Source of the DNA: Ruminococcus sp.
GTDB taxonomy: Bacteria > Bacillota > Clostridia > Oscillospirales > Ruminococcaceae
Direction of reading: 5' to 3'
Assembly: GCA_015066815.1 (NCBI GenBank)
Contig: SVNR01000004.1
Coordinates: forward strand, 1-64,000
DNA: 64,000 bases
The notes under the pieces were generated by a model. The model searched no databases. It saw only the letters and a list, made by a program, of their open reading frames with translations, and was not told the origin of the DNA. The position numbers were made by a program, and so were the translations under genes. Each line of letters begins with the position of its first letter. The stretch's first letter is position 1. Positions 15,675-47,298 of this stretch are shown here, in pieces.

Positions 15675-15686
15675 TGTCAATGTACA

Positions 15687-15920
15687 TCAGCCCTTGTTTT
15701 TTATACTACTGAGCATATCCTTGAAGGTGTCAGGTGAAACAGCATCTGATGCCTTCATGTTGCTTTCCATGGTCTGGCGCAGTTCACTTCTCAGAACCTT
15801 GACGTCCTTAGGCGCTTCTATTCCGAGTCTTACCTTATCCCCGCTTACTTCTATTATTTTTATCTCTATATCATCGTTAATACAAATTGTTTCCCCCGCT
15901 TTTCTTGAAAGTATAAGCAT
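15687..15920 (-). CDS. csrA: Carbon storage regulator CsrA
   Basis: RNA-binding translational repressor, 77 residues, with the characteristic start MLILSRKAGETI and core GDKVRLGIEAPKDVKVLR. In Gram-positive bacteria it represses flagellin mRNA translation and is antagonised by FliW. Its ATG overlaps the fliW stop by one base (TGATG), so translation is coupled. The C-terminal tail (about residues 50-77) is longer than in E. coli CsrA, as is common for proteins that bind FliW. Confidence 0.97.
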   Translation of the reverse strand: MLILSRKAGETICINDDIEIKIIEVSGDKVRLGIEAPKDVKVLRSELRQTMESNMKASDAVSPDTFKDMLSSIKNKG

Positions 15921-16351: not shown

Positions 16352-16437
16352 AACTACCTCCGTATATATCAATTTTTTTAAAAAATACAGGGGTGTGAAC
16401 AAGCACACCCCTAATCTGCTATGTTTTATAAATAATG

Positions 16438-17031: not shown

Positions 17032-17066
17032 ATTGATCCCTCCCAAATATCACCGGAAAACCGTCA

Positions 17067-18116: not shown

Positions 18117-18149
18117 TTTACTTTTCCACCCCCATAAACTCCTCTGTTA

Positions 18150-19691: not shown

Positions 19692-19708
19692 AAAAAACCC
19701 CTCCGCTT

Positions 19709-20179
19709 CTAAGCCTGCCTGTCAAGAATGCCTGTCTGATAATTTTTTTCGGAAACATTTCCTTTTTTATCATAGCAAGCCGGATCTGTAATCCCGTCAT
19801 AACCCTGAACACCGTTTTCCTTAAGGTTTTTGCGGACTATATCAAGTGAACGCTTGTTATACTCGCTCGCCTTTGCAACAGCGTCGCTGAAATCATAAAG
19901 CAGGTCCTCAAGCTCCTCCTTACGATCCCCAGTCTCCGTGTCTATAATCTGTCTGAAGCTCTTACCTTCCAGGCCCAGTTTCTTAAACAATTCGCTTCGC
20001 TTTTTTTCGTACATTTCTACTTTTGAAACATAAACCTGATATTCCGAAAGAATGTTATTGATTGCCTGAAGGTCATCAGACTGAAGAGCATCTGTTTTTT
20101 GTTTTTCGTTTTCACATACTTCATCATAAAAATCAATGTACTCTTCCATAAAGCTATAAAACTCTTCGTAATCTTTCAT
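19709..20179 (-). CDS. flgN: FlgN-family chaperone
   Basis: 156 residues, all-helical, acidic, located between flgM and flgK as in other Firmicutes. The pattern KTDALQSDDLQAINNILSEY followed by a second long helical hairpin fits FlgN, the export chaperone of FlgK and FlgL. GGAG lies 9 bases before ATG 20179; the longer frame to 20248 is disfavoured since it lacks such a site. 17 bases before flgK. Confidence 0.8.
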   Translation of the reverse strand: MKDYEEFYSFMEEYIDFYDEVCENEKQKTDALQSDDLQAINNILSEYQVYVSKVEMYEKKRSELFKKLGLEGKSFRQIIDTETGDRKEELEDLLYDFSDAVAKASEYNKRSLDIVRKNLKENGVQGYDGITDPACYDKKGNVSEKNYQTGILDRQA

Positions 20180-20280
20180 TGCATTCATCTCCGGAAAATC
20201 AGTTTTTTTGAAATAACAGGAACAGTTTTCTGTATTTACAAAAACCATTCCTGCTCTTTGTATTTTTTGTTTACCCTGAA

Positions 20281-20595
20281 TTAGAATGCCATACGTTCAA
20301 GAATGGCATCTGCTACGCTGCCGGCTGAAATATTGTATGTCCCGGCTGAGATCTGTGATTTCAGAGAATTAATTTTTTCCTGTGACGCAGAACCGTAAAC
20401 TTCGGAAGCGATTGTCTTAGTGCTGCGATCAAGCTCTCTGAAGGACGCTGCCTCAGGGCTTATGGATACCATATCATGCTGCCCGGAATGAACTTTTCCG
20501 GATGACATCGGATCTATGTATCCTTTTGTGTTTATGTTCCCGATTTTCTCGGTCTTCATATATCCGCTGCACACATTATTAAAATTAATATTCAT
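20281..20595 (-). CDS. flgM: Anti-sigma-28 factor FlgM
   Basis: 104-residue inhibitor of the flagellar sigma factor, secreted when the hook is finished. The family C-terminal pattern is seen: DMVSISPEAASFRELD, then RSTKTIASEVY, then KINSLKSQISAGTYNISA and SVADAILERM. First gene of the cluster on this strand. AAGGAG upstream supports ATG 20595; a GTG six bases earlier is possible. Confidence 0.93.
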   Translation of the reverse strand: MNINFNNVCSGYMKTEKIGNINTKGYIDPMSSGKVHSGQHDMVSISPEAASFRELDRSTKTIASEVYGSASQEKINSLKSQISAGTYNISAGSVADAILERMAF

Positions 20596-20743
20596 ATACA
20601 CACAACTCCTTTCTGTAGTTTGAATATAAATCGTCGCAAAACAACCCCTACAGAATATATATCGTCACTTCCGTTTTATTTTAAATACCGATAGGCGTAA
20701 AATATTTTTCTAAATTTTAGGAAAAACAAGACTGATGCTTTCA

Positions 20744-24188: not shown

Positions 24189-25319
24189 ATGCATAACAGA
24201 AAAATATTCAAACGTTCCTTAAGCTTTGCTTTGTCCCTGTCTCTTGCACTTACATCAGCATACCTTGTTTCTGCTGACCAACAGGCAGCCGTATCTGCAA
24301 GCAGTGAAGCCGCACATGATCCTGACAGGGATGTACAGGCCGAAGGCGTAGGAAATCCTTTTAACTACGGAGAAAGAAATACTCCCGAAAACGGAAGCGA
24401 CGAAGAGATCCGTGCTATCAATCATGCTATGACAGTACAGGAAGTAAAATACTGTATGTACAAGGAAATAGACGAACACTGGGATCTCATAAAGGTACGC
24501 TTCGGTCAGGACAACCGTGAAATGGTCTACGCACTCTTTTTAGGCCTCGGAACACGTGAATCAACTCTTGGCGGAAACGGTGACGGAGCGGATATAGAAA
24601 CTGCTCATTCGGAAGGATTTGGCGTAAGCTCCGCTCATGCATACGGAACAATGCAGACAGCAGTCACAGCTTTTAAAGACTGCAATCCGACGTTCATGAA
24701 AGAAGACGACGTTCCCGAAATGTTCCAGTACTCGCTTACACACGCTAACTTCTATGACGCAGTTATATCAAACCATATGGGCATACGAAAGCTTATGCAC
24801 TTCGTGCGTTCCGCAATAGTGGACTATGAGCTTGAAGGATATCAGGTAGTCAGAGGTGCTCTCAAGGCCTTCAATACAGGCTGGGCAAACTATACCGGAG
24901 AGGACGACGGATACTATAAAAACTACCCCGATGAAATAATCGCTCTTGCACGCTGGTACTATGAGGAGGGACACCTCTACGACAATGTGTTTACCTGGAC
25001 AAACGACGAAAGAGTAAACGAATACCGCCAGGGTAACGTATGGGACTGGTGGGGAGACGGAGTTCCAAGCCTTGCAGAAATACAGCCCTCAAGTCCATCC
25101 GATCCCCCGTCACCGAACGAAATAACCAAGGGTGACACGGATGAAAACGGTATGGTTGATATTACCGATCTTTCTGTACTGTCCATATATCTTCTTGAGG
25201 GTCAGAATCTATCCGGAAACGGATTAAAAGCTGCTGATGTAAACGCTGACGGAAGCGTAACACTTTCTGACCTTGCAAGACTAAGACAGTATCTTTCAAA
25301 AAAGACAGATAAACTCTAA
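24189..25319 (+). CDS. Secreted dockerin enzyme with lysozyme-superfold catalytic domain, GH124-like
   Basis: 376 residues: signal peptide (1-29, cut near VSA-DQ), a linker, a helical catalytic domain (about 70-292) and a dockerin (about 313-371; loops GDTDENGMVDITDL and ADVNADGSVTLSDL). LFLGLGTRESTLGG with E124, then YGTMQTAV, are the layout of the GH23/lytic transglycosylase superfold. GH124 cellulases of cellulosomal Firmicutes share this fold, and the dockerin closely resembles that of the GH9 enzyme (shared TDLSVLS), so a cellulosomal endoglucanase is my best guess; a peptidoglycan-active enzyme is the alternative. Own promoter and terminator. Confidence 0.65.
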   Translation: MHNRKIFKRSLSFALSLSLALTSAYLVSADQQAAVSASSEAAHDPDRDVQAEGVGNPFNYGERNTPENGSDEEIRAINHAMTVQEVKYCMYKEIDEHWDLIKVRFGQDNREMVYALFLGLGTRESTLGGNGDGADIETAHSEGFGVSSAHAYGTMQTAVTAFKDCNPTFMKEDDVPEMFQYSLTHANFYDAVISNHMGIRKLMHFVRSAIVDYELEGYQVVRGALKAFNTGWANYTGEDDGYYKNYPDEIIALARWYYEEGHLYDNVFTWTNDERVNEYRQGNVWDWWGDGVPSLAEIQPSSPSDPPSPNEITKGDTDENGMVDITDLSVLSIYLLEGQNLSGNGLKAADVNADGSVTLSDLARLRQYLSKKTDKL

Positions 25320-31455: not shown

Positions 31456-34400
31456 TTAAGGCGAAACATTGCAGCCCTTGAAGGCATCTGACATAATTTT
31501 TGTACTTGACTTGTCATATCTGATTTCGGTTATACCGGTGCAGTTTTGAAACGCACGGCTCCAGACATTTTTCACACTGCTCTCAAAAGTCAATATGCCT
31601 GTTATATTACTATAATTACCGGTATTATTGAAAGCATCTTCAGCTATACATTTTACCTTTCCTCCGAATGTGAGATTTTTGATATGAGCCTGTGAGAAAA
31701 TATTAATAGTACTAAAATCTTCTGTTGAACCAAAAGCACCGTCACTTGGATTTGAACAACCATAGATCTTGACACTTGGAGGATTCCAGAGATTCTGAGC
31801 AAATCCGTAAAAAGACCACTTACCTATATGTTCTACTGACTCTGGGATTATAAACTCACGTTCTCCAATAGATATTCCTCCGTAGATCTGCGCTAAACCG
31901 TCAAAGCAGCTTTCACCTATCCATCTGAGGCCATCGTGTAAAATAAGCTTTCCATCAAGTTTCCTGCAATGATAAAACGATTTTTGATTTACAGAGTCAA
32001 CACCTGGCCCTATTTCAAGAGTACCGGTCAGATGATATACGTTTGCACCAGTATTATTCGGATCATTATTGAACATATTATGAGCTATGTAAACCACTTC
32101 TCCGGCTATCTTGATATTTCTGAAGCGTCCACCTGCAAAGATAGGATTGTTTGAATCCGTATTTTCTAATCCTCTTAATCCCTTGCTATCTGTAACTGAG
32201 CTTCCGTTGATAACAAGCGGACCTGCGTTTTCATCAGATAAAGCACTGGCATAGTTTTTGAAAACTCCACCTTCCATAGTTCTGACTGAAACAGGAACAG
32301 TGAGACCACCGGAAACATTGATACATTCGGCAAATGCTTCTGTTTTTAAAGTTTTAAGCTTACTGCTACCGTCGTTTCCAAGCTTGATGCTTCCGGTAAA
32401 ACCATTACAGTAATAAAACGCTCTTCTTCCTATCTCTTCTACATTATCACCGATATAGAGTGAACCTTTTATATTTGTATAGTCATAGGTCGGAAGATCG
32501 TTTATCTGACTTGTGTCAGCACCCGGCATGAAATAACAGTTATCCATAAACCTCTGCTCTATAACCTGTACAGTTCCGTCTATATAGACATCCTTAAACT
32601 TAGCGCTCGGGAATATCGGAGCTCCGTCTCCGCTGCTTGCGTTTCCAAGAACCTTTCGTCCCTGACTGTCTATTGCAGAACAGCCTCTGATTATGAGCGG
32701 ACCGATATCCTGTTCGTTAAGTCCGCTTGCAAAATACTTGAAAGCACATCTGCCTATAGATGTTACTGTCTCGGGAATCACAAGACCACCTTTTATTTTA
32801 GTACATCTGTTAAAAGCATTCGGACCTATAGTTCTGAGATGACCATTATCAAGACTGAGCTCTGTAAGTTCGGCGGTTCCGAATGCTCTGTAGCCTATTT
32901 TTTCGACGCTTCCGCCTATAGTAAGCTTTCCTGTGATGCTTCTGTAATTTGCAATATCATTGTTAAGCTTATATGTCCAATTATCAGATGTAAAGCCCTC
33001 ATGTACTCCATCATGATCCTGATCATCTTCAAACTGTTCTCCACCACTTGGAAAATCGCTGGTATAAAACGCAAAGTCACCTATAGTTTTTACATTTCCT
33101 TCTATAGTGATACCTGTAAACTTCGACTGAGAGAAAAGTCTGTATCCCAGAGTATGTGCTGAATCATTCTCAGAATATCCGCGGACTATCAGTTCACCCG
33201 GTTCACTTGAGTCAGCTGCAAATTTTTTGAAAGCACGTTCGCCCATAGTAGTTACTGTATCAGGTATCACAAGACCGCCCTTGACTTTTTTACAATCTGC
33301 AAAAGCGTCATGTTTTATGGTGTGTACTGTTCCGAGATGAATCCTGTCATCAAAGTTCACCCCAAGAAAAGCTTCTTCTCCTATTATTTCCACCGTATTA
33401 TCAATTATATTTAGCTTTCCTGTAACACGGCTGTAATCATAGTCAAAACTCTGATTAAGCTCACCATCCCAGAATTTTTCCATAGCCAAATTTTTCATAA
33501 ATCGGAAATCAATATTTTTTACTACTCCTCCTACTGTAACGTCTTTAAATCCAGCACCAAGGAAGATAGTACCTTCTATTTTATTGCTACTCGAACATCC
33601 GTATATCTCAAGCGGACCCTTTCCACTTCCGAATCCTCTGAAGGCAGCTGTACTTATCTTTGTAACTGACTCAGGAATAACAAGACTATCAAACTGAGAT
33701 ACATTTGCAAAAGCTGAACGTCCGATACTCTTTACTCCGTCAGCTATGGTAAGCTTACCTCTCATATTGAAGTAATCGGCACTATCTTCACTATATGTCT
33801 TACCGTTTACTTCTTTTGTGACGCCGTTTTCACCGATATTGAAGAAAGCATAATCAGATATATTTTCTACCTTTCCTTCAATATATACATTGTTAAAATG
33901 AGCATGCGGGAAAATAAACGGATCGATAGTTTTTCCGCTGTCACTCGAACCTGCCCTGAGATGCAGTTCGCCTATCTCTGTCGTACCTTTTCTGTCCTGG
34001 GCAAAATGCTTGAAAGCAAAGTTTCCTATACTCTCTACTGTTTCAGGAACAGTCAGTCCGCCGCTGAAGCGTGTACATGAGTTAAAAGCGTTTTCTCCGA
34101 TAGTCTTGACTCCGCTTCCCATGTTTTCTCCGGGTATATCTGCGTTGAGAGTAAGCTTTCCGTCAAACTGCGCACAGCATATAAACGCATTATCAGCTAT
34201 AGTTTCAACGTTCATACCTATATTCAGATCTCCGGTAATATCCGCATATTCATTTCCGATAGCACCATTGCTAAGGTTATTCATAAACGAAGATCCAATA
34301 TAACTGATATTTCCGCCGATAGAAATATTTCTGAATTTTGAATGCGGGAATATAAGCTCACCTATCTTTGTGCCGTTATCATACGAACCCGATAACAGTA

Positions 34401-37400
34401 TAAGCTCACCCGGTTCAGCTACATCTGCAGCAAAGTACTCAAAAGCGTACTTGCCTATTCCGTCAGTAAGTGTAGTAGGAATATACAGGCCCCCTGTAAA
34501 GCTTCTGCAGTTGCTGAATGCTTTTTCACCGACTTTTTTAGTACTGTTAAGGAAAAGTCTTCCGTTAAAACCTGTACAGTTCATAAAAGCCCGGTTTCCG
34601 ACAGTCTGAACCTTATCTAAGGTAAGATCACCCGTAAGGTTTTTGCAGCTCTCAAAAGCACTGTCACCTACTGTTATAACCTCCGGTATCGAAAGCGTTC
34701 CGGTAAAGCCTTCACAGTTTCGGAATGCTTCTGATCCGACAGTTGTAACCTTGTTAAGATTAAGCTCGCCTGTAAAATTACATTTTTTAAAAGCACTTGC
34801 AGCGATGGTCTGTACGCTGTCCTCTATGGTAAGCGTACCGGTTATATCTGAAAAATCAAATGTTGTATACTCATTTGTACCTGGTTGGAGGTTATATATA
34901 TTAGTAAGATCGTTATTCATAAAGTCAATACAGATCTCTTTAACGTTTCCACCTATTGTAACGTTTGTGAACTTACAGGAAGAAAATATAGGATGATTCA
35001 GTTCATCTGTTCCCGGTTCAGGTGCTCCGAGTTTTGTTCCCGTTCCGTCAGAACCGCCATGAACCGTGAGCGAACCGGTACCATCGCCAAAGATCTTGAA
35101 CGCACTTCTACCCATATATTTTACAGTTCCGGGTATATACAGATCTCCGCTTATCCTTTCGCATCCTCTGAACGCGCCTTCCGCTATACTGCTTACTCCA
35201 TCCGTCTCATCTGCATTCGTTTCAAAAGCAAGTGTTCCGTCAAGGTTTGAGCAGTTATAAAAAGAACAGTATCCTATAGTATCAACGCCGCTTTCAAAAG
35301 TCAGCGAGCCTGTAAACCTTGAATAGTCAGCAGTTATCGTAGAGCCGTTTTCTGCATAACCATGACGAAAAGCATAGGAGTCTATATCTTTTACATTTCC
35401 GCCTATTGTAATATCATGGAACTTTGCATCGTTAAAAATAAACGCCCCTATCTTTGTTCCGTTACTGTATGTTCCTGACTGTATATCAAGAGGTCCGGGA
35501 TTGTCAGACTCTTTTCCAAAGCCCTGAAAAGCATATAAACCTATTCCGTCAGTTACTGTACCAGGAATAACAAGCCCTTCACTGAACATTTTACAGTTCT
35601 TGAACGCTTCCATTCCTATCTTTTTAAGAGAAGCAACTCCTCCGTCTATAAGTGTAAGCTTTCCGTTAAACCCCACACAATCCATAAAAGCTCTTGAACC
35701 TATTGTTATAACAGTAGATGGTATAGTAAGATCTCCCGTAAAATTAATACATCCGCTGAACGTAGAATCGCTTATCTCCATGAGTCTATCCGGAAGATCA
35801 AGTTCCCCTGAGAAACCTGTACAGTTTTCAAAAGCGCTGTTTCCTATCCTTGTTACGTTGTTTCCGATAACCAGAGAACCTGTTATGTTACTGTATGGTG
35901 TCATACCATTAACGGGACTGTTCTTAAAAGCCATATCATCTATTTCGGATACTTTTCCTCCGATGATAACATCACCGAAAACACCGCCGGTAAAAACAAA
36001 ACCTCCAAGCACCGACTTTCCATCAGCTGTTGTATATGTTCCTGCATTTATTATAAGCTTAGGTTTTACAGGAAGTGAACCCTGATTCTGAGCAGCATAT
36101 CTCATAAAGGCATTTTTTCCGATAGAAACAACACTCTCCGGAATAACAAGATCTTCCTTAAAGCGCTGACATTCTGCAAACGCCTCTTCGCCAATAACTG
36201 AAACGTTTTTCAGATCAAGTCTTCCTTCAAAACTTGTTCCGTAAAAAGCCTGATTTCCTATTTTCTGCAGTGACGAAGGCAGAATAAGCGATCCATTGAA
36301 CTGGATATTTTTAAATGCTTCATCCTTGATTTCTACTACAGAGTCATCTGCAAACGAAAGCGTTCCGTTTATACTTTCATCTATATTTTGGTTTACATCA
36401 TGGTCCACCTTAAGAGCTTCTGACGGAAGTGCATTACTGCCTATAAGCTTTACTTCACTTCCAAAATAAATACTGCTGAAAAGTGCACTTCTGAACCATC
36501 TGCTTTCAAACATATGAGTTTCCTTATCGGTAACACCGCAGATTCTGATCTGACCGTTTCTCATGGTAAAATCATAAAAAGCTCCATCACCAATATACTC
36601 TATAGTTTCAGGAATGGTAAGAGAGCTGTTTTTATCTACTCCATTCATATACTGAAACGCAAATGAACCTATCTTTTTTAGTTTATTTCCGAGAACAAGC
36701 TCCTCTACAAAACTGTTCCTTCTGAAAGCACCTGTTCCTATCTGCTCCACAGCATCGCTCATCTTAAGACTTTTCAGCTGATAACCATTTTCAGGAAATA
36801 ATATAGTATAATCAACTCCCGGACCCATATCTGGAATAGGTTTACCAAGTACTTCTATAGTATATTCGTTTCCATCATCTATATAGTAAATATCACCGGT
36901 TCTTGTACTTACCGATGCCACACAATCCTCAGAAACACCATCAGGAATAACCGGTGACCAGTACCCCTTTACTTTTTCAGGTATATCAAGATACTGATTG
37001 CTTCCTCTGTATTCTATCATATACAGTCCTGTTGTAGATGATGTAGGATCCAGCTTATAGGTTACATACTCATTTGGTGTTATCTTAGCACGTGTTTTTA
37101 CATCAACGTAACATGACCTGGTTTCACCGTCTGTATACTGAATATATACTTTTCCTTCATAAGAGTCTGAAACAAGTCGCTTTACAGCTGCTGCATCCTT
37201 TTCAGGAGTGATGTTATCCTTTTCAGATTCAGTGTCCGTTATAAGATATCCATCCTGCACATCAGCTTCCTTGTGCTCTATAGTTTTAGAAAATTCTATT
37301 TCTTCTATTTTTGATTTTTCAGCGTCAAGGATGGTTATCACATAATCAGCAGTTACATCAAGACCATCAAACGAAAATACACTGTCATTTGCGTTATTAT

Positions 37401-39582
37401 CATAAGTGGCATGGATGTTTTTTAACTGAGTTTTTATCTCTCCTGCTACCGTAGTTTCACCTGTTACCGGATCCTTATAATACACATATGCATCAGAAGC
37501 CTTGCTGTTTATTTCATCTACAAGACCGGCTTCCTTTCCTGATTCTTTGGTTTCATCAGAAATATAGTATCCGCCTTTATCTGATTCGTTTTCCATATGC
37601 GGAATATCATATATGATAGTTGTATCCTCTGACACACAATTATCCTTATTATCACGTATAACAAGATCCATCTGCATAGAGACGTTTATTTTATCCGGAT
37701 CAAACGAATTATCGTTTTCTGAACCGTCATAGCCCATGGATATAGTTTTGTTATCTGTTGAGATAGTGCCTATCTTTACGTCTTCCATACCGGGTGCATG
37801 GTAATATATATCTGCTGAGATTTCGCCGGAGTTTATACGATCTATTATATCAGCGTCACCGTTTTCAGGATAACCGGGAGGTGAACCAGACACGACAAAG
37901 TAATACCCTGATGTATCACTTCCGCTTGTCATATGTGATACTTCCTGCTTCTGTATAAAAGACACCGATGGTTCTTCAGTACCGGACAGAGTAAGATTTG
38001 TCTCTACATCTACAGTTACCTTAAGATCTTCAGTAGTAAAGGTCGTGTTCCCTTCACTCTGTTTATACTCAATATTTGCATCCTTATAAACTCCCTCTGT
38101 CTTTCCGATAACTCCGAAAACTGTAACCGGCTCATACCTGTAGCCATATCCGTCGTATACCTTATGATACTCCTGATATGCCACAGTAAGCTCGTCTCTT
38201 CTGCCCTCCATAAAATCTTTTATAAGATCTTCCTCTTTATCAAGCAGTTCCTTGAGATCGGATTTTTCATCAGCATTAAGAGATGGATCAGAAAAAATAC
38301 CTGCCCATGTAGTATCGCTGACAGCTTCCTTGCTTTCTACTATTATAAAACCGTTTCTTATCGAATGTGGTTTTGACTCAGAATCAACATCCCACGCAAC
38401 CATATGACTGAAGTTTTCTTTTAAACCGTCATCATACTCTACTGCAACATTAAATGAGTTCTTGAAGGCATAAGCATTATCTGAACTTATATCTCCGGAT
38501 ATTTTTGATATGGCAAGTTCCTTGGACGAATCCGGTTTTTTCTCAGAAATAAGTATATGACTATCCTTGTTTTCTGCTGTAACATCTTCAAGGTCTATTC
38601 CCTTTACATCATCGCACACCTGAACATACCAGTTTCCGTCACGCTGTATCCAGGACACAGAATCACTCTCGTACTTATCTGCAACAGAATGCGGTTTAGT
38701 TGTATCCCAGCCTTCCTTATATACATAAGATCCTGCTGTTCCTTCAGCCGGAGGCCACTTCTGAGGATCGTTGTATTCGGCATTGGTCAGAGTCTCTATG
38801 ACAATATTATCCTTTGAAAATGTGAAAAACCTGTATGTATTTTCTTCCTCGTTATTTGCGTTGTAGTTTTCCTGATAGTACATGCTTATCCATTCAACTT
38901 CTCCGTCAGCTCCGACAGATACACCTGCTATCTTATAAACACTGTTACCATCGTTTATGTCTTCTACTATGTCAGGAATCGTAGAGGGATTTGAAAGCAC
39001 ATCCTCTATCTTGTCTATTGTTATATCTATCTGATCCTTGAAGATCTCTTCTTCGTTTCTCACCTCTTCAGTATATCCTGTATCCGAAACAAGAGCTGCG
39101 GTGAACTCATGACCTTCCATATATAACGCTTCTTCGCCACAGTCACAGGTACATCTGTTCACATCTACTCTGGCTGTAGGCATGGCTTCGCCCGAAACCT
39201 CCTGAGGAATAATTTCCCAACCGAAACTATACTTTCCGCCGTTCGGACATATTCCGTCAACAGAGGTTACTGTTGTAAGGATACTTGTTATAACAGTATC
39301 ATTTTTTGAAACAACTGTTTCAGGCTCAAGTTCAGACTTTGCGGCTTTTTCTACCATACCGACAAGACTTCTGTTGAGCTCCTCAACATCATAATATCTT
39401 CTGGAAACTATACTATACTCTATATCGTTTACAAAATCATTCATAATGCTGCGGCAGTTGTTATCCTTTGTTCTTTTTACATACCCCGAAATATTCGGAA
39501 CAGCTACAGCTGCAATTATGGCAATTATAGTAAGCACACAGATAACTTCTATCAAAGTAAATCCTTTTCTTGCCCTTTTCAT
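31456..39582 (-). CDS. Giant prepilin with BspA-type leucine-rich repeats, probable pilus-linked adhesin
   Basis: 2,708 residues. The N-terminus is a class III prepilin signal: MKRARKG, then F8TLIEV with the Glu at mature position 5, then a hydrophobic helix (about 8-30). Residues about 30-480 are a unique region; about 490-880 hold roughly four imperfect repeats of about 100 residues (pattern GYYI...INS...VYY.D..TGET). From about 930 to the end are BspA/LRR_5 repeats (IG..AF..C..F.G.L.IP..V..IG), organised in about ten units of roughly 150 residues, each starting with a F.DV.IGG.VK.I strand. No dockerin, sortase motif or second membrane helix. It is the last gene of the pilus operon, so probably assembled as a minor, perhaps tip, subunit. 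AAGGGAAG precedes ATG 39582. Confidence 0.88.
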   Translation of the reverse strand: MKRARKGFTLIEVICVLTIIAIIAAVAVPNISGYVKRTKDNNCRSIMNDFVNDIEYSIVSRRYYDVEELNRSLVGMVEKAAKSELEPETVVSKNDTVITSILTTVTSVDGICPNGGKYSFGWEIIPQEVSGEAMPTARVDVNRCTCDCGEEALYMEGHEFTAALVSDTGYTEEVRNEEEIFKDQIDITIDKIEDVLSNPSTIPDIVEDINDGNSVYKIAGVSVGADGEVEWISMYYQENYNANNEEENTYRFFTFSKDNIVIETLTNAEYNDPQKWPPAEGTAGSYVYKEGWDTTKPHSVADKYESDSVSWIQRDGNWYVQVCDDVKGIDLEDVTAENKDSHILISEKKPDSSKELAISKISGDISSDNAYAFKNSFNVAVEYDDGLKENFSHMVAWDVDSESKPHSIRNGFIIVESKEAVSDTTWAGIFSDPSLNADEKSDLKELLDKEEDLIKDFMEGRRDELTVAYQEYHKVYDGYGYRYEPVTVFGVIGKTEGVYKDANIEYKQSEGNTTFTTEDLKVTVDVETNLTLSGTEEPSVSFIQKQEVSHMTSGSDTSGYYFVVSGSPPGYPENGDADIIDRINSGEISADIYYHAPGMEDVKIGTISTDNKTISMGYDGSENDNSFDPDKINVSMQMDLVIRDNKDNCVSEDTTIIYDIPHMENESDKGGYYISDETKESGKEAGLVDEINSKASDAYVYYKDPVTGETTVAGEIKTQLKNIHATYDNNANDSVFSFDGLDVTADYVITILDAEKSKIEEIEFSKTIEHKEADVQDGYLITDTESEKDNITPEKDAAAVKRLVSDSYEGKVYIQYTDGETRSCYVDVKTRAKITPNEYVTYKLDPTSSTTGLYMIEYRGSNQYLDIPEKVKGYWSPVIPDGVSEDCVASVSTRTGDIYYIDDGNEYTIEVLGKPIPDMGPGVDYTILFPENGYQLKSLKMSDAVEQIGTGAFRRNSFVEELVLGNKLKKIGSFAFQYMNGVDKNSSLTIPETIEYIGDGAFYDFTMRNGQIRICGVTDKETHMFESRWFRSALFSSIYFGSEVKLIGSNALPSEALKVDHDVNQNIDESINGTLSFADDSVVEIKDEAFKNIQFNGSLILPSSLQKIGNQAFYGTSFEGRLDLKNVSVIGEEAFAECQRFKEDLVIPESVVSIGKNAFMRYAAQNQGSLPVKPKLIINAGTYTTADGKSVLGGFVFTGGVFGDVIIGGKVSEIDDMAFKNSPVNGMTPYSNITGSLVIGNNVTRIGNSAFENCTGFSGELDLPDRLMEISDSTFSGCINFTGDLTIPSTVITIGSRAFMDCVGFNGKLTLIDGGVASLKKIGMEAFKNCKMFSEGLVIPGTVTDGIGLYAFQGFGKESDNPGPLDIQSGTYSNGTKIGAFIFNDAKFHDITIGGNVKDIDSYAFRHGYAENGSTITADYSRFTGSLTFESGVDTIGYCSFYNCSNLDGTLAFETNADETDGVSSIAEGAFRGCERISGDLYIPGTVKYMGRSAFKIFGDGTGSLTVHGGSDGTGTKLGAPEPGTDELNHPIFSSCKFTNVTIGGNVKEICIDFMNNDLTNIYNLQPGTNEYTTFDFSDITGTLTIEDSVQTIAASAFKKCNFTGELNLNKVTTVGSEAFRNCEGFTGTLSIPEVITVGDSAFESCKNLTGDLTLDKVQTVGNRAFMNCTGFNGRLFLNSTKKVGEKAFSNCRSFTGGLYIPTTLTDGIGKYAFEYFAADVAEPGELILLSGSYDNGTKIGELIFPHSKFRNISIGGNISYIGSSFMNNLSNGAIGNEYADITGDLNIGMNVETIADNAFICCAQFDGKLTLNADIPGENMGSGVKTIGENAFNSCTRFSGGLTVPETVESIGNFAFKHFAQDRKGTTEIGELHLRAGSSDSGKTIDPFIFPHAHFNNVYIEGKVENISDYAFFNIGENGVTKEVNGKTYSEDSADYFNMRGKLTIADGVKSIGRSAFANVSQFDSLVIPESVTKISTAAFRGFGSGKGPLEIYGCSSSNKIEGTIFLGAGFKDVTVGGVVKNIDFRFMKNLAMEKFWDGELNQSFDYDYSRVTGKLNIIDNTVEIIGEEAFLGVNFDDRIHLGTVHTIKHDAFADCKKVKGGLVIPDTVTTMGERAFKKFAADSSEPGELIVRGYSENDSAHTLGYRLFSQSKFTGITIEGNVKTIGDFAFYTSDFPSGGEQFEDDQDHDGVHEGFTSDNWTYKLNNDIANYRSITGKLTIGGSVEKIGYRAFGTAELTELSLDNGHLRTIGPNAFNRCTKIKGGLVIPETVTSIGRCAFKYFASGLNEQDIGPLIIRGCSAIDSQGRKVLGNASSGDGAPIFPSAKFKDVYIDGTVQVIEQRFMDNCYFMPGADTSQINDLPTYDYTNIKGSLYIGDNVEEIGRRAFYYCNGFTGSIKLGNDGSSKLKTLKTEAFAECINVSGGLTVPVSVRTMEGGVFKNYASALSDENAGPLVINGSSVTDSKGLRGLENTDSNNPIFAGGRFRNIKIAGEVVYIAHNMFNNDPNNTGANVYHLTGTLEIGPGVDSVNQKSFYHCRKLDGKLILHDGLRWIGESCFDGLAQIYGGISIGEREFIIPESVEHIGKWSFYGFAQNLWNPPSVKIYGCSNPSDGAFGSTEDFSTINIFSQAHIKNLTFGGKVKCIAEDAFNNTGNYSNITGILTFESSVKNVWSRAFQNCTGITEIRYDKSSTKIMSDAFKGCNVSP

Positions 39583-39711: not shown

Positions 39712-41388
39712 TTAATCTGTATCGTATGCTACCTTCAATACCTCTTCAGGTGTTGTGATGCCTCTTTTTACAAGTGCAACAGCACCTTCCTTAAGTGTTT
39801 TCATCCCCTGCTGCTCAACTGCATAGTTGAACATATCCAGACTGTCCGCTCCTTTTGTAATCATTCGCTTGAGCGTTTTGTCTATAAGCACCATCTCGTG
39901 TATGGATACTCGCCCCTTATATCCCGTGTTGTTGCATATATGACAGCCCTTGCCTTTTCGGATAACCTTTATATCCGGACCGATTATGGCTGTCTCTTCA
40001 GCAGTAGGCGTTGTCTCATATCCGCAGTTTGCACATACCTTACGCACAAGTCGCTGAGCAACTACACCTACAAGAGAGTTTGCTACGAGATACGGCGCAA
40101 GTCCCATATCTTCAAGTCTTACTATCGACGATATAGCATCGTTTGTGTGAAGGGTGGATATAACAAGATGTCCTGTTATAGCCGCCTTTACTGATATCTC
40201 TGCTGTTTCCGCATCTCGTGTTTCTCCGAGCATTATGATATCCGGGTCCTGACGAAGAAGCGCTCTGAGTCCTACTCCGAACGTAAGCCCTGCCGGAACG
40301 TTTACAGACATCTGGTTTATCTTTGGCAGACCTCGTTCAACCGGGTCTTCTATAGTAGAGATATTTACCTGACGCTTAGCAAGATGCTCAAGAACCATGT
40401 AAAGCGTGGTTGTTTTTCCCGAACCGGTCGGACCGGTTATATATATGATACCGTTAGGAGAAGCGAGCATTTTGCTTATTTTTTCATACGCCTCCGGCTC
40501 CATTCCAAAGTGTCCTGCCTTGTCTATAGTAGTATCAGAGGAAAGATATCTCATAACTACTTTTTCACCGTATATTGTCGGGATAACCGAAACACGTATA
40601 CTTATATCATAGCCTTCCACAACTGTACGGAAGTTACCGTCCTGCGGAATTCTCTTTTCTGCAATATCAAGGTTTCCCATGATCTTGATACGTGCTACGA
40701 GTGACGAATGAAGTGATTTTGCTAAAGTTACGTATTCTATTATCAAGCCGTCTATTCGCATGCGTACCTGAGTATGTTTTTCAAAAGGCTCTATATGAAT
40801 ATCACTTGCGTTTGTGCTGTAGCCTCTTGCAAGCAGTGAGTTTACAAGCTTGATAACCGGAACCTCATCTTCTCCTTCTTCAAGCTGAAGTGTCGGAACC
40901 TCAAGCTCCTTAACTGATGTGTTTGCCTGCTTTGCCGCAAGCTTTGCGCCTACCTCGGCATAGTTCTGATCTATCAGTCTTTTTATGTGAACACTCTCAG
41001 CAAGATATATTTCGAGAGGAAGTCCGACTATCTGACGGATATCCTCCTGTGCATAGAAGTTGAGCGGATCGCTCATAGCTATCTGAAAACGATTGTCCAC
41101 CTGTGACAGTGGAAGTATGCTGTACTTGAGAGCCAGCTGTTTCGGAACTTTTTCGGAAGCTTCAAGATCTATGACGTATTCGTCAAAGTTTATCATAGGC
41201 AGCTCAAGCTTACGTCCAAGACACTCGAGAACCTGATACTCCGTTACAAACCCCAGCTCCTGAAGCAGTGCACCGAGTCGTTTTCCCTGACCTGCTTCTG
41301 TTTTCTGGAACGCAAGCGCCTGCTGTATATGTTCATCGGTGATATAACCGTATTCTTTTAATACTTCACCTATCGGTACGTTTTTCAA
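39712..41388 (-). CDS. pilB: Type IV pilus extension ATPase PilB
   Basis: 558-residue hexameric motor for pilus assembly (GspE family). N-terminal GspE-N-type domain (about 1-145), then catalytic domain with Walker A GPTGSGKTT (319-327), Asp box region TIEDPVE, Walker B DIIMLGETRD (383-392), His box STLHTND, and a zinc site C452xxC455...C482xxC485. It starts with TTG at 41388, with AGGAGG 8 bases upstream; the nearby ATG is in another frame. Works with PilC in the inner membrane. No pilT retraction ATPase or prepilin peptidase is in the window. Confidence 0.96.
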   Translation of the reverse strand: MKNVPIGEVLKEYGYITDEHIQQALAFQKTEAGQGKRLGALLQELGFVTEYQVLECLGRKLELPMINFDEYVIDLEASEKVPKQLALKYSILPLSQVDNRFQIAMSDPLNFYAQEDIRQIVGLPLEIYLAESVHIKRLIDQNYAEVGAKLAAKQANTSVKELEVPTLQLEEGEDEVPVIKLVNSLLARGYSTNASDIHIEPFEKHTQVRMRIDGLIIEYVTLAKSLHSSLVARIKIMGNLDIAEKRIPQDGNFRTVVEGYDISIRVSVIPTIYGEKVVMRYLSSDTTIDKAGHFGMEPEAYEKISKMLASPNGIIYITGPTGSGKTTTLYMVLEHLAKRQVNISTIEDPVERGLPKINQMSVNVPAGLTFGVGLRALLRQDPDIIMLGETRDAETAEISVKAAITGHLVISTLHTNDAISSIVRLEDMGLAPYLVANSLVGVVAQRLVRKVCANCGYETTPTAEETAIIGPDIKVIRKGKGCHICNNTGYKGRVSIHEMVLIDKTLKRMITKGADSLDMFNYAVEQQGMKTLKEGAVALVKRGITTPEEVLKVAYDTD

Positions 41389-41428: not shown

Positions 41429-42085
41429 TTATTCGTAGTAAGTATAAAAAATCTCGATACCGCTTGTTTCGTTGCTTATATCGTCTGCTTTTATGTGAGA
41501 GTTTACTGTATTATTCAGAAGAGGTATACTGCCTGTTTTGGTATAGAGAATATCTCCGTCACGTTCGAGAGTAACAGTAAGTATAATAACGTTCGAATCC
41601 TTTGTGTATCCGGCAAAGGAAACTATGCAGTGTGCACCGTACAGTCCGTCATTTCCTTCGTTTCCGCCATATATATATACCGTTTCTGACATGTTTTTTC
41701 TTTCAAGCTTCATAGAAGCGTTTTCCGAACCACTTTGGCTTATCGTTATCTTTTCATAATAAGAGGATATATCCTCTATATTGCCATCCTCAGATACAAC
41801 AAGTAACTCTTCTGGAACAAAATCATTTTTTTCCATACTACTATTTATTATATCGGCATCTTCGCTTATTTTTAAAGACGTTGCATAAGACAATCTGTCA
41901 TATAAAAAATTATAAATGTTGTTTCCCTCATTCTGAGCAGCCCTCATGACGGAATTTTTTCCGAATATGTTAAAGCTTGTTATCATCACTGATGAAGAAA
42001 CAGTGATGAGAATACTCATTATCGCAAGAGATGTCATGACCTCAACAAGTGTAAAGCCTGACATTCTCCGTTTAGTTTTTTTCAT
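41429..42085 (-). CDS. Minor prepilin, PilW/PulJ-like
   Basis: 218 residues. Class III signal: MKKTKRRMSG, then FTLVEV with Glu5, followed by a hydrophobic helix ending about residue 35. The globular remainder (FLYDRLSYATSLKISEDADI...) has the size of PilW/GspJ minor pilins and a predicted beta-rich C-terminal. One of three adjacent minor pilin genes. GGGGTG 8 bases before ATG 42085 defines the start; a longer frame from a TTG overlaps the preceding gene. Confidence 0.85.
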   Translation of the reverse strand: MKKTKRRMSGFTLVEVMTSLAIMSILITVSSSVMITSFNIFGKNSVMRAAQNEGNNIYNFLYDRLSYATSLKISEDADIINSSMEKNDFVPEELLVVSEDGNIEDISSYYEKITISQSGSENASMKLERKNMSETVYIYGGNEGNDGLYGAHCIVSFAGYTKDSNVIILTVTLERDGDILYTKTGSIPLLNNTVNSHIKADDISNETSGIEIFYTYYE

Positions 42086-42102
42086 ATTTTCACACCCCGT
42101 TT

Positions 42103-42516
42103 TCAAGGATTTTCGGGTACCTCTGTTACCATATACGGAACAAAAAGCTCATACTCTACTTTTTCGTCCGAACCGGTTACGACTCCGGCAGCTATCATAC
42201 CATCTGTCTCCTCTGCGTCGGCAGACGGCATCATATTTCCGTTACTGTCAGGAATAAGCTCTCTGATATTCAGTGTATATGGTATATATGTTGTGACCTG
42301 CGCGCCCTCCTTGTTGTATTTTGCAAGGCCGTTTTCAAGCTCTTCTGCTGCCTTTCCGTCAGAGCTTCTGAGATCCACTCCGTGCTTCATGAAGTTAGCC
42401 GATGCGTTCACACCGATAAACGCTGCTATTGTCACGAGAATTATTATTGCCATTGCTATTATTACTTCTGTAAGTGTCATACCGCGAAGGCTTTTATTTT
42501 TCTTAATATGTAACAT
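42103..42516 (-). CDS. Minor prepilin, PilV/GspI-like
   Basis: 137 residues. The signal is MLHIKKNKSLRG followed by MTLTEVIIAM, with Glu5, then a hydrophobic helix. Position and length suit PilV/GspI. It overlaps the end of the previous gene by 14 bases, and the next gene starts 17 bases after it, so the three minor pilins are likely translated as a unit. Confidence 0.85.
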   Translation of the reverse strand: MLHIKKNKSLRGMTLTEVIIAMAIIILVTIAAFIGVNASANFMKHGVDLRSSDGKAAEELENGLAKYNKEGAQVTTYIPYTLNIRELIPDSNGNMMPSADAEETDGMIAAGVVTGSDEKVEYELFVPYMVTEVPENP

Positions 42517-42919
42517 AGCCTTTTAACCCCCATGTTCTGTGAACCACATCATATTCCATTATCCCTATGACCGTACAGGTCACATCTGCTGATTCTGCCC
42601 CCGATACAAGTCTTATAGTGTTTGTGCCGGTTCTCATGACTTCAACTTTTCCCCATTCATAGTCAATAACGATCTGTTTTTCCTTGACTATAAGCTTATC
42701 GGACGTTTTTTCTTCTGAGAGCCTGTTGTCCCTGATAAGTCCTGCAGTAAGCTCCACACCCGAACGCGCAAGATACTCAGCCCGTCTCGAGGCTATGTTT
42801 GTGATCTCCTCCTCGGCATAAGACTTATTCAAAGCAAGAAGTCCTGTCAGAACAAATGTTATAATCAGCAAAGAACAGACAGCCCACAGCATAGCGGAAC
42901 CTTTATACTTTTTTTTCAT
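42503..42919 (-). CDS. PilX/GspK-like minor pilus protein
   Basis: 138 residues with a short basic N-terminus KKKYKGSAMLWAVCSLLII, one hydrophobic helix and a segment rich in ARSGVELTAGLI, typical of PilX and GspK. The Gly-Ser junction in place of Gly-Phe fits this class, which often lacks the Glu5. GGAGG precedes ATG 42919. Confidence 0.75.
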   Translation of the reverse strand: MKKKYKGSAMLWAVCSLLIITFVLTGLLALNKSYAEEEITNIASRRAEYLARSGVELTAGLIRDNRLSEEKTSDKLIVKEKQIVIDYEWGKVEVMRTGTNTIRLVSGAESADVTCTVIGIMEYDVVHRTWGLKGYVTY

Positions 42920-43005: not shown

Positions 43006-43788
43006 CTAATCAGTTCTCGACTTCAGTGTAAAGTTTCTGTCATACATATAGACCTTTATGCCTATCCCTGCTTTGTATACAGTGTTGTTTACAACTCCCG
43101 AATCAACAGGATTTCCCTCCTCAAGCTCTTCTATCAGGTCATCAATCTCTGAAGAATTGTAAGGCTTATCACCGTTCAGATTTCCGCTGTTAAAATAAAA
43201 GCTGCTTATCTCCATTGATTTTTCATTATATACCATTGAAAGAAATCTTATGATATCACCGTATCTTCCTGCAATATCATAGTATATTTCACGGGAATAC
43301 TCACCTGTCTCATACTCAAGAACAACTGTGTCTTCAGTACTGGAAACTACCTTTCCCCCCTGCGGATACATGGATATAACAGAATATGCGTCAACACCGT
43401 CTTCGCCGTCCTCCATTACGCTGCACTTGACCTGGACTGTATCTGCCTTGAACGGTGAAACATCTGAGGACTCTATCACAAGATTGCAGGACAGAAGCAT
43501 GTTTGTTATCATGTTATCCTGCTGACCGTTTTTCATAAAAGGAAGAAAGTCACGGCGTTTTTTATCAAGAAGCTCCTTTTCCTCCTTGTATGTGACAGAA
43601 TCTATACTATAGAAGGCTGCGAGCATTTTCATATCTTCATATACCATGTTCATACTGTCTACTTTTTCTGTAAGCTCAGCTTTTTTACTTAAAATAGGCC
43701 TGTAAAAATACTGAACAGCTATAACAAGGATAAGTATAACTATCAGAACAATAAGCGTTATCATCTGTTTTTTACTTATGTTTTTCAT
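43006..43788 (-). CDS. pilO: PilO-like pilus alignment protein
   Basis: 260 residues: short cytoplasmic start, one membrane helix (about 9-28), a coiled coil (about 30-75) and a ferredoxin-like C-terminal domain, the PilO layout. Similarity to PilO is by architecture and gene order, directly following the PilN-like gene by 3 bases. With PilM and PilN it would form the inner-membrane platform. Confidence 0.75.
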   Translation of the reverse strand: MKNISKKQMITLIVLIVILILVIAVQYFYRPILSKKAELTEKVDSMNMVYEDMKMLAAFYSIDSVTYKEEKELLDKKRRDFLPFMKNGQQDNMITNMLLSCNLVIESSDVSPFKADTVQVKCSVMEDGEDGVDAYSVISMYPQGGKVVSSTEDTVVLEYETGEYSREIYYDIAGRYGDIIRFLSMVYNEKSMEISSFYFNSGNLNGDKPYNSSEIDDLIEELEEGNPVDSGVVNNTVYKAGIGIKVYMYDRNFTLKSRTD

Positions 43789-43791: not shown

Positions 43792-44412
43792 TTACTCCTC
43801 CTCCTGTTCCTCTGTAACTGTCCTCTCGTCATCAACGTCAAAATCCCCCGTTGCCGAGAATATATAGACATCACCTACACGGGCATAACCCAGATATGTC
43901 ACGTTACTGAATATATTCATACTGTCAAGCTCGCTTACAAAGCCTGAAGCCTGATACGGCTCCTTGGCCTCAACGCTTATGAACACGATACCCTGATCAA
44001 ACGATATCATGTTTATCCTCGTATCCTCATACTGACACTGAAGTATATCCTCTATAAGCTCCGGGTATAGCTTTCTTGTCTGTTTGTTTCCCTCTTCTAT
44101 AGTTTCTCTGTTTTCAGCATGCTTTTCCTCTATTAGCTGAAGTATCTGGTTTTCGTATTCGAGTCTTTCTGCGTTTACCGACTGTTCTGCTGCAGCCTCA
44201 GAATATATCTGTTCATACAAAAAGTCATATTCTTTTTGTACACTCCTGTACTGGAGATAAAAAACTACATACACACCGACAAGAACAAGAATGCCTGAGC
44301 CGCCGTATATTATTATAGTAGTTTTTGTACTGAGTTTTTTTCTTTTTTCTTTGCCGATGGTTTTCTGATACTGTTCATAAAGATTGATGTTTTTTCTCTT
44401 CATTTTCCTCAT
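43792..44412 (-). CDS. pilN: PilN-like pilus alignment protein
   Basis: 206 residues with the cytoplasmic PilM-binding peptide KRKNINLYEQYQ (the INL signature of PilN), one membrane helix (about 31-53), a coiled coil and a C-terminal ferredoxin-like domain, then an acidic tail (EEQEEE). GGGGG precedes ATG 44412. 17 bases after pilM. Confidence 0.82.
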   Translation of the reverse strand: MRKMKRKNINLYEQYQKTIGKEKRKKLSTKTTIIIYGGSGILVLVGVYVVFYLQYRSVQKEYDFLYEQIYSEAAAEQSVNAERLEYENQILQLIEEKHAENRETIEEGNKQTRKLYPELIEDILQCQYEDTRINMISFDQGIVFISVEAKEPYQASGFVSELDSMNIFSNVTYLGYARVGDVYIFSATGDFDVDDERTVTEEQEEE

Positions 44413-44428: not shown

Positions 44429-45310
44429 TTACAAATCGATCATGTTTCCTATAGCATAAATAAAATTGTTTGCGTTTTCCGTTCCCTTGTACTTTATCTC
44501 ATCAGGAACAGGTGCTGCAGTCACGCTTACTCCTATAGTATCGGTAAGCCTTCTGTATATTTCATCATACTCCGGCAAAAAGCCTACAAAGTAGAAGTCA
44601 GTGATATCGTTGTTGGTTTTTTCTGACTTATTGAACTGTATAAGGTTAAGAAGTGTTCTCACAAGCTCGTCAAACAGCTCCTCCTTGTTGTCCTCCGCTA
44701 CTATTCTTATCCTTCTTGAAAACCTGTAGTCCCCTTCAACAAAAAGAGCAAACGTAACAGTATGCTTGTCAACGACTGCATAAACAAAAGTTTCATCTAT
44801 AAGGTCGTTTATGTTCATGATGTACTTTATCATACAAGCAAGAGAGATGTCTATTGACTCTATCTTAAATCCGAGAGATTCAAAAAGCTCTATATACTCC
44901 GAAACAAACTCCTTCTCTACAAGAGTTGCAAGAACTGTTGCTCCTCCTGCAGAGTTACGCTGTTCAAGAACCATATAGTCGGTTATCATGTTTTCACGGT
45001 TATCTATATCCTGGAAGTTATCGTTTATGAGAGTCGTGAGCTTTTCCTTATCTCTTAGCATAGGAACCTCAAGAAGCTTTGTCATAACTCCTGCACCGTC
45101 TATAACAAGCCTGATGCTTTTGGAATCTATGGCAGCTGATTCTATGCTCTGCTTCAGTGCAGCCTGATCGGTTATAACACCGTTTATTATACAGCCCTCC
45201 TGGACCTTTGATTCTATTATCTCCTTTATCCTTACGTTTCTTTTTGAGCCTGTCCCCTTTACTACGTGTATAGACTCGTTAGAAATATATACTGATGTTG
45301 TGACTCCCAT
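44429..45310 (-). CDS. pilM: Type IV pilus actin-like protein PilM
   Basis: 293-residue cytoplasmic protein of the actin-like (FtsA/PilM) fold, opening [18 protein letters not shown] and containing [17 protein letters not shown], the usual phosphate-loop and PilM region. It binds the PilN N-terminal peptide. AAGGAGG, 9 bases before, fixes ATG 45310. 4 bases after pilC. Confidence 0.88.
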
Positions 45311-45314
45311 ATAA

Positions 45315-46568
45315 CTATACCTCCTTCCACTCACTTATATCGCGCACTGCCTGAACCTCATAGCCTCCGCTCCTGTCGGAAGCACCCTCGATACTGCTGT
45401 ACATGTTGAATATAGGAAGCATTACTGAACCTATAACCACAAGAACAAGACCCGCCAGTATGATTATCATAACAGGCTGAAGTATAGTTATCATCTTGTT
45501 TATAGCCGCCTGTGACTCATACTCATAGGAGTCGGCAGTACAGTTAAGCATTCTGTCAAGCTGACCGGTTTCCTCACCAACCTCAACTGTCTGTGAAAGC
45601 TTGATATCAAAGCCGTCTATTCCCCTGAGGGTTTCTGAAAGAGTTATTCCTGCACGTATTTTTTTTACTGCATCGTCAAACTGTTCTCTTATATAATAGT
45701 TTGAGAGAGTGTTTTTTGATATCTGAAGGCTGTCTACGATGTTTATACCGCTTGCATACAGAGAAGCAAGGGTTCTCGCAAACTGAGCCGTATAGACTAT
45801 TTTTATAAGGTTTCCTATCTTAGGAAGCTTTAGTATGAACTTGTCTATCTGATACTTTACCGGATAGAGAGTAACTATGAAGCCTATAAGCGTTACCGAT
45901 ATAGCAGCGACAAGAGCTATTATGATAATGTTCTCTCTTATAAAAGTACTTAAGTTCATAACTATCTGTGTTATGAGAGGGACCTCCATGTCTTCAAAAA
46001 GCTCAAAAAACGTAGGAAGCACAAAAGTAAAAAGACCCATCATAACAACCACTATAAGCACAAGAAGGACTATCGGATAAGTCAGCGCACTCTTTACACT
46101 TCCGGCCATCCGATATTCCTTGTCATAGTGAACTGCCATCTTATCAAAGGTCTTGTCTATATCTCCGCTCTCCTCACCGGCACGGATCATGTTTACGAGC
46201 ATCTCAGGAAACATACGTCCCTGAAGCTCCATGGCGTCCGAAAGCGGAACGCCTCTTTTTATCTGTGTTGATATGTTTGTATATGATTTTTTTAGCTTCG
46301 GATCGATATCACGTCCGCTGATTATTGTAAAGGAACGAACCACAGATATGCCTGAGCCTAAAAGTGAGCCAAGCTCCCTGCACAGCTCTGCAAGCTCGTT
46401 CGACTTGAGTTTTCTTCCTGTTGTCATGTTTGCCTTTTCCTCGTAGCTTATAAGGAAAAGATTCTGCTGCTTCAACAGCTCCCTGAGCTGTTCGGGGTTT
46501 GCTGTTGTAAGCTGCCCTTTTTTTATTTTTCCTCCCATATTGGAGGCAACATACTGATATACTGCCAT
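45315..46568 (-). CDS. pilC: Type IV pilus inner-membrane platform protein PilC
   Basis: 417 residues of the GspF family: N-terminal cytoplasmic domain, two T2SF domains (about 70-195 and 275-400) with the motifs [15 protein letters not shown] and [15 protein letters not shown], each followed by conserved GEESG/GEETG, and three membrane helices (about 170-195, 215-240, 375-398). It couples the PilB motor to pilin insertion. It follows pilA across a hairpin. Confidence 0.95.
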
Positions 46569-46618: not shown

Positions 46619-46656
46619 AAAGCATTCAGCACTCATATCAAGTGCTGAATGCTTTT
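46619..46656 (-). terminator. Intra-operon hairpin after pilA
   Basis: AAAGCATTCAGCACT (46619-46633) pairs with AGTGCTGAATGCTTT (46641-46655), a perfect 15-bp stem. On the minus strand it is followed by AAAACTTTTTT, so it should partly terminate pilA transcripts and leave less mRNA for pilC onward. Confidence 0.8.
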
Positions 46657-46697: not shown

Positions 46698-47195
46698 TTA
46701 TGTACCTGAAGATCCTGTGGTTTTTGTTACAGTAAAACCTGTAGCACTAGTATAGTTAATTGTTTTTTCATCAGAAACCACATAAGTCATAGCTGTAATC
46801 TTGTTTTTATCGTTTACAGTAATAGAAGTAATATTACCTGAACACTCTGCCAAAGTTTCCATGTTATCAAACGAATAACCTGCATCATAACCGCCGTCAT
46901 TTTCGGTGGTTGTTTGCGACTGACTTGCCCCTGTCTGAATCTCCTTACCTAAACCATAAGCCTCACTTGCAAGAGTCTGAGCTGCTGTGAGAGCGTTTCT
47001 TGCTTCTGAAATATCTGTTCTGTCCCTCGCCTTATCAATGTACCCCGTAAGTGCTGGAATCATAGCCGCTGCAAGAATTGCGAGAATTACGAGAACAACG
47101 ATAATTTCAACCAATGTAAAACCTTTGAGTGATTTCTTGCCGTTTTTCTTGTTTTCAGCAACGCGTTTCATAGTTCTTTCCATCAACTTTTTCAT
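46698..47195 (-). CDS. pilA: Major type IV prepilin PilA
   Basis: 165 residues. A long basic leader (about 24 residues, ending KKSLKG) precedes FTLVEIIVVLVILAILAAAM, a class III prepilin signal with Glu5; the hydrophobic helix continues to about residue 48. The small Thr/Ser-rich globular domain lacks the usual cysteine pair. First gene of the pilus operon, with the strongest promoter seen here and a partial terminator behind it, consistent with the abundant structural pilin. AAAGGTGG precedes the ATG. Confidence 0.93.
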   Translation of the reverse strand: MKKLMERTMKRVAENKKNGKKSLKGFTLVEIIVVLVILAILAAAMIPALTGYIDKARDRTDISEARNALTAAQTLASEAYGLGKEIQTGASQSQTTTENDGGYDAGYSFDNMETLAECSGNITSITVNDKNKITAMTYVVSDEKTINYTSATGFTVTKTTGSSGT

Positions 47196-47239: not shown

Positions 47240-47298
47240 AGATCAGATAATCCCTTATCTCATAATCCTATTATAGCAGAAGGTTTGTCGATTGTCAA
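47240..47298 (-). promoter_or_regulatory. Consensus promoter and 5' hairpin of pilA
   Basis: On the minus strand TTGACA (47298-47293), exactly 17 bases, TATAAT (47275-47270), a perfect sigma-A promoter. The transcript would begin near 47263 and carry AGATAA-GGGA-TTATCT right at its 5' end, a possible mRNA-stabilising hairpin, about 65 bases before the pilA ATG. Confidence 0.88.

Follow-up and report, generated by a model that had tools for sequence, protein, structure and literature searches.

A giant modular prepilin with a BspA-type leucine-rich-repeat passenger, encoded by the last gene of a pil operon in Ruminococcus sp.

The window, a stretch of 64,000 nucleotides of Ruminococcus sp. (positions 1 to 64,000 of contig SVNR01000004.1), contains a type IV pilus operon whose last gene encodes a giant modular prepilin. 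This gene occupies positions 31456..39582 of the minus strand, an assignment absent from the earlier note on this DNA, and runs from an ATG at 39582 to a stop at 31456. The product comprises 2,708 amino acids, approximately 16 times the size of a normal type IV pilin. The start is indicated by the Shine–Dalgarno-like AAGGGAAG, which lies immediately upstream of this ATG. Starting at another in-frame ATG, at 39612, would lengthen the protein by ten residues; this is the less likely start, as no such site precedes it. Residue numbers for the parts of the protein are nevertheless counted from the ATG at 39612, i.e., with ten added.

The N-terminus is a class III signal (39502..39582, minus strand), in which a short, basic leader of seven residues ending in glycine (predicted cut MKRARKG^FTLIEV) is followed by Glu5 and a hydrophobic helix. 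It is recognized above cut-off by N_methyl (PF07963, E 1.7e-7) and by TIGR02532, the NCBI prepilin domain model (30.9 bits against a cut-off of 16.3), while matches to GspH (E 1.8e-4) and GspG (E 2.2e-4) fall far under theirs. In the same open reading frame, LRR_5 is matched in 15 stretches (E 5e-135). No other Pfam family exceeds its cut-off, and neither a carbohydrate-binding module nor a dockerin was found with Pfam. The mature chain has a mass of about 295 kDa and a pI of 4.6, and its sequence holds neither an LPxTG motif nor another evident anchor. The protein is a modular pilin, in which the pilin module is fused to one that is not restricted to type IV pilus biology; both the class III signal and the prepilin–LRR_5 fusion proposed in the earlier note are real.

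The mature pilin and a head module span approximately residues 18–345 (38578..39561, minus strand), as delimited by alignments, a structural model of residues 12–503, and a homologue in a related species (G009). This part includes helices alpha1 and alpha2, a beta-sheet, and the conserved segments CPNGG...CxCxC and WIQRDGNWYV. Its end is a natural boundary: the G009 homologue stops there, at 354 aa and inside its contig, with no LRR remnant downstream in three frames. The model of this region (492 residues, pLDDT 69) consists of helices at 9–25 and 29–59, then strands. Fold searches with it (Foldseek, VIA-align) returned no pilin and only weak matches (Z <=5.4), such as actin-capping protein. 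A second head part follows, then a stalk, and then the solenoid.

The stalk (approximately residues 500–850; 37063..38115, minus strand) is composed of three beta-rich repeats of about 110 aa, with motifs at residues 560, 672, and 780 and a possible fourth copy ahead of them. A model of residues 500–1290 is all-beta here, with pLDDT mostly between 80 and 90. Fold matching of the stalk gave only weak S-layer-domain hits (EA1 Z 3.6, SbsC Z 3.2), which were not used. The remainder of the protein, approximately residues 848–2718 (31459..37071, minus strand), is a leucine-rich-repeat solenoid assigned by PF13306, repeat anchors, and fold matching. Ten super-repeats of about 150 aa were counted by profile, with anchors between residues 1211 and 2643 spaced 116–212 aa apart; these counts, ten long units and three to four short ones, agree with those given earlier. 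The modelled start of the solenoid (residues 848–1290) matches PDB 4fs7 with Z 24.1 (rmsd 6.7 over 346 residues) and PcpA with Z 17.6, and in a viral structure library good matches were obtained solely to LRR proteins. According to this modelling, the LRR part has a BspA-type fold, as in the surface proteins 4fs7 and PcpA. The giant thus shares LRR_5 sequence and solenoid fold with Tannerella BspA, pneumococcal PcpA, and 4fs7. To our knowledge, known BspA and LRR_5 surface proteins carry ordinary secretion signals or wall- or choline-binding parts and are not delivered as pilins.

The operon, all of it on the minus strand, has the order pilA, pilC, pilM, pilN-like, pilO-like, K-like, I-like, J-like, pilB, and giant prepilin. 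A promoter-like site (47270..47298; TTGACA-N17-TATAAT, 12/12, with TG) precedes pilA (46698..47195), an N_methyl protein and the probable major pilin. Between pilA and pilC lies a 17-pair terminator-like stem (46619..46655), a possible attenuator; from sequence, this arrangement would fit abundant PilA and scarce downstream subunits. The platform protein gene pilC (45315..46568) is assigned by PF00482, and pilM (44429..45334) by TIGR01175 (E 1.3e-7) and PF11104 (E 2.3e-5), both under their curated cut-offs. They are followed by the PilN-like (43792..44412) and PilO-like (43006..43788) genes, each encoding a transmembrane segment, N-terminal in the latter. Next are three minor pilin genes: a GspK/PilX-like one without Glu5 (GSAMLWAVC; 42503..42919; weak ComGG match, E 0.011), a GspI-like one (42103..42516; N_methyl, weak GspI match, E 0.004), and one that is J-like by position (41429..42106; N_methyl). 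The N, O, J, and K assignments draw on gene order, size, and sequence character, convincing family matches being absent. The assembly ATPase gene pilB (39712..41388; PF00437, PF05157) encodes an N-terminus of the MshEN, c-di-GMP-binding type (NF053729, 50.8 bits against a cut-off of 38), and no terminator was found between it and the giant gene. A gene for a fourth, small minor pilin is absent from the operon. Elsewhere in the window, a GGDEF protein (57153-59120) whose receptor domain is LacI/sugar-binding-like may be a source of c-di-GMP for the MshEN-type PilB.

The giant had been described as the last gene of a complete pilus operon. It is the last gene; the operon is not complete, as it lacks a prepilin peptidase and PilT, both of which the genome encodes at another pil locus (L069; G000:C65:45000-62000), the second one. 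This locus holds its own pilB (42% identical to the giant-operon PilB), pilT, pilD with the A24 prepilin peptidase, and two small pilins, without a giant. Its PilB type was found in 10 of 11 genomes of the genus. The distinction is relevant to comparison with the R. flavefaciens Pil3 and R. albus CbpC-GP25 pili, likewise type IV pili of cellulolytic ruminococci, for which a link to growth on cellulose or to adhesion to it has been described (PMC3672088). The Pil3 cluster consists of pilT, pilB, pilD, and small pilins (PMC3672088), which is the gene content of the second locus and not of the giant's operon, and the PilB of R. flavefaciens Y1 is only 41% identical to that of the giant's operon. 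Equating the latter with the Pil3 pilus was consequently rejected.

Conservation was assessed in 11 genomes of the genus, the present one (G000) and ten related species. A PilB match is present in ten of them, and nine carry the PilB of the giant's operon (80–91% identical); in G002, only the second-system PilB was found, and in G008 no pilB match. The G010 contig breaks off at pilB. In the remaining eight genomes, the present one included, a giant lies beside pilB in seven, and the 354-aa form takes its place in G009. Seven of the ten related species thus have a homologue beside the orthologous pilB, six of these being giants. The complete giants span 1,909–4,722 aa (2,708 here; G006, 2,794; G001, 3,186; G004, 2,568; G003, 4,722; G007, 1,909), and that of G005 has at least 1,684 aa up to a contig end. 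In G006, an ORF of 367 aa is located between pilB and the giant gene, and G001 encodes a tandem giant of 1,950 aa in addition to the 3,186-aa one. All six giants scanned, the present one among them, combine N_methyl with LRR_5, and an N_methyl census of the 11 genomes revealed no prepilin ORF longer than about 365 aa outside this pilB locus. The check proposed earlier, whether the fusion always sits beside pilB, therefore gives a positive answer throughout the genus, and for this particular pilB.

The same comparison disposes of the suspicion that the pilin and LRR parts are separate genes joined by an assembly or annotation error. The present assembly is fragmented (92 contigs), which invites such doubt, yet the same fusion stands beside orthologous pilB in independent congener genomes, one of which consists of 4 contigs. 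The error is refuted on this ground, and the probability left to it is negligible.

Divergence within the locus is graded. Between G000 and G006, identity is 90% for PilB, 83% for PilC, and 56% for PilA; within the giant, it is 81% for alpha1, 49% for pilin and head together, 36% for the stalk, and 40% for the LRR part. Such a gradient in the sequences would be expected if the machine is conserved while its binding face changes. The G003 giant contains thousands of residues of near-repeated stalk. In G001, the two tandem giants (L189:2577-18285) have a 1.8-kb segment in common at 94.5% DNA identity, and in the second the frame is shifted by one additional T within a run of T; gene conversion or phase variation may underlie this pattern, or it may stem from a sequencing error.

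Outside the genus, giant passengers recur in other forms. At E<=1e-155, PilB of the giant-operon type was found in 19 of 298 family genomes. In genus g28, G217 has a pilB-pilT-giant prepilin arrangement (L180; 1,172 aa, without LRR), and the giant prepilin of G037 is interrupted. Genus g75 has no giant after pilB-pilT, and weaker relatives of the head module, 344–355 aa long and without LRR, are encoded elsewhere in the genome. Lachnospiraceae AC2029 (L105:10939-21131) encodes a prepilin of 2,065 aa that carries DUF285 repeats, in the same gene cluster as a 56%-identical PilB. A Eubacterium MAG (L125:9953-19716) has prepilins of 1,166 and at least 2,083 aa, the former with DUF285, and a prepilin of 2,152 aa without LRR_5 occurs in other Clostridia (L181). 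The giants of L105 and L125 are tandem, with DUF285 or unassigned repeats, and the AC2029 pair lies within the pil cluster. All these giant proteins resemble the present one in combining a prepilin signal with a passenger of great length, and L180 also in following pilB-pilT; they differ from it in their passengers, which are without LRR_5 and are apparently independent grafts. Among 394 genomes of the order, the head module at E<=1e-12 matched only its own genome and one short pilin. Because the head is nearly confined to the genus in this order-level sample, its combination with LRR_5 can be regarded as a trait of this genus, within the genomes covered.

LRR modules are used in more than one way in this lineage. 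LRR_5 occurs in about 12 ORFs of the genome. Four ORFs other than the giant carry dockerins according to Pfam, and a fifth dockerin is seen by eye; of the further ones, two have one dockerin-like repeat at their end, another is probably a lipoprotein, one has no signal, and two are cut by contig ends. The genome's other secreted LRR proteins use ordinary Sec-type signals or a lipobox. In R. flavefaciens FD-1, 28 LRR modules have been reported among dockerin proteins (PMC2930009), and R. albus 7 has LRR-CBM37 proteins (PMC4300822). Considering these proteins together, the pilus may be seen as a second route for an LRR module otherwise often carried on the cellulosome. An LRR_5 protein with Thr/Pro-rich repeats is encoded in two near-copies at L221 (G000:C87:7001-12967), where one dockerin-like repeat forms the end. 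By gene content, the lineage is cellulolytic, since GH48 is present in 11 of 11 genomes of the genus; together with dockerin-bearing enzymes in the window, this agrees with the earlier description of the host as a cellulolytic bacterium. G008 has GH48 without a pilB match, which suggests that pili are not required for a cellulolytic lifestyle, and with the head-only form of G009 it suggests that the adhesin is dispensable as well.

The fusion type itself is already known from a database survey, contrary to the earlier suggestion that it was undescribed. Raynaud et al. (2021) count N_methyl with LRR_5 (IPR012902-IPR026906) as one of the 15 modular-pilin architectures encountered most often and give the added module "no clear function" (PMC8179133); IPR026906 is LRR_5 (PMC5998147). 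Their modular pilins, like the present one, consist of a pilin module and a C-terminal non-pilin module, and the most extreme multidomain case they cite is a protein of 860 aa (PMC8179133). The giants differ in their length of 1,909–4,722 aa, the repeat stalk between pilin and LRR, the fixed place beside pilB, and the genus-wide occurrence. A literature search found no description of the prepilin–BspA fusion as a system, nor of the giant stalked form, the fixed locus, the size series, or the LRR-dockerin link; such giants may be included in the supplementary dataset of Raynaud et al., which lay outside the search. Consequently, what is apparently new is the size, the stalk, the fixed locus, the conservation of the motor while the passenger diverges fast, and the use of LRRs in two ways.

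A tested precedent is provided by PilB (vWA) and PilC (lectin) of S. sanguinis. These modular minor pilins bind host ligands through their C-terminal modules and have been modelled at the pilus tip (PMC8179133, PMC9934059). Each carries one extra module (PilC has a mass of 52.8 kDa), whereas the present protein has about 295 kDa, a stalk, many repeats, and a putative ligand. By this analogy and from the operon, the giant is predicted to be incorporated in pili and exposed at the tip, and it is probably a minor pilin of low abundance, acting as a long adhesin on the pilus. The prepilin would be inserted in the membrane, and its leader would be cut by the prepilin peptidase of the second locus. 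Its pilin module may then enter the initiating complex of the tip alongside the K-, I-, and J-like minor pilins. The place it takes there is probably the "H" slot, assigned by elimination because a gene for a fourth, small minor pilin is absent. Stalk and long solenoid would project from the tip, on a fibre extended by PilB and presumably controlled by c-di-GMP via the MshEN-type domain.

The ligand bears on the earlier proposal of a cellulose-binding fibre. LRRs usually bind proteins; for this reason, a protein or glycoprotein of the plant wall or of a microbial or host surface is a more likely ligand than bare cellulose. That proposal is further weakened by the absence of a carbohydrate-binding module from the Pfam matches of the protein, by the correspondence of the R. 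flavefaciens pilus to the other, paralogous system (PMC3672088), and by a tip position being likelier than a shaft-wide fibre. The giant possesses Glu5, as major pilins do, so its sequence would also allow a place in the shaft, in many copies that form a bristly substrate-binding fibre, the arrangement closest to the original picture. Raynaud et al. allow a shaft position if the linker is flexible (PMC8179133). The bulk of the giant, the normal-size PilA in the same operon, and the position of its gene, last and beyond the attenuator-like stem after pilA, make a shaft subunit rather improbable.

A different objection to a tip adhesin is that the prepilin signal may serve only to anchor an ordinary LRR surface protein, inserted in the membrane, perhaps trimmed, never assembled, and acting at the surface or shed. 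A load of 295 kDa is heavy for pilus assembly, the precursor would reside in the membrane before any assembly, and no other anchor is evident, LPxTG being absent. This explanation is nonetheless unlikely in view of the linkage to pilB conserved across the genus, the conservation of alpha1 (81%) with Glu5 present, and the ordinary Sec-type signals or lipobox of the genome's other secreted LRR proteins. The passenger may also be a surface for recognition or antigenic variation (kin recognition, evasion of phage or host) rather than a substrate adhesin, its repeats turning over by recombination. Fast passenger divergence, the long near-repeated stalk of G003, and the G001 tandem giants, with their nearly identical segment and frameshift, speak for it. 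However, divergence alone equally fits adaptation to a ligand, and the comparison is one between species; the probability of this reading is low.

Modular pilins have been proposed to explain the gain of function by type IV pili, and the examples studied so far are small. The genus offers a natural series in which the machine is constant and the passenger ranges from none (354 aa) to a protein of 4,722 aa, so that it becomes possible to test how far pilus assembly and tip display can go. A tip adhesin of this kind is also a candidate for attachment to fibre or surfaces in cellulosome-producing gut bacteria, apart from the pilus usually discussed there. More speculatively, the giants may represent a class of perhaps retractable tip fibres, in which a swappable pilin module carries an adhesin as long as 4,700 residues and the length of the stalk is tunable; in cellulolytic ruminococci, the same LRR module would be delivered by both cellulosome (through dockerins) and pilus to a common target on fibre. 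This extension is tentative and on the whole doubtful.

Several other genes in the window relate to the lifestyle of the organism. Positions 2854-5430 encode a GH9-CBM3-dockerin protein, and positions 24189-25319 a Cel124-type enzyme with a dockerin. A phage-type lysozyme with SH3, Big_3, and dockerin domains (6651-8186) is apparently a cell-wall hydrolase attached to the cellulosome. Positions 9672-20601 hold, by sequence character, a late flagellar cluster (FliD-, FliS-, FlgL-, FlgK-like, and others) in this GH48-bearing ruminococcal lineage, and flagellin-domain matches, some of them FlgL-like, occur in 10 of 11 genomes of the genus.
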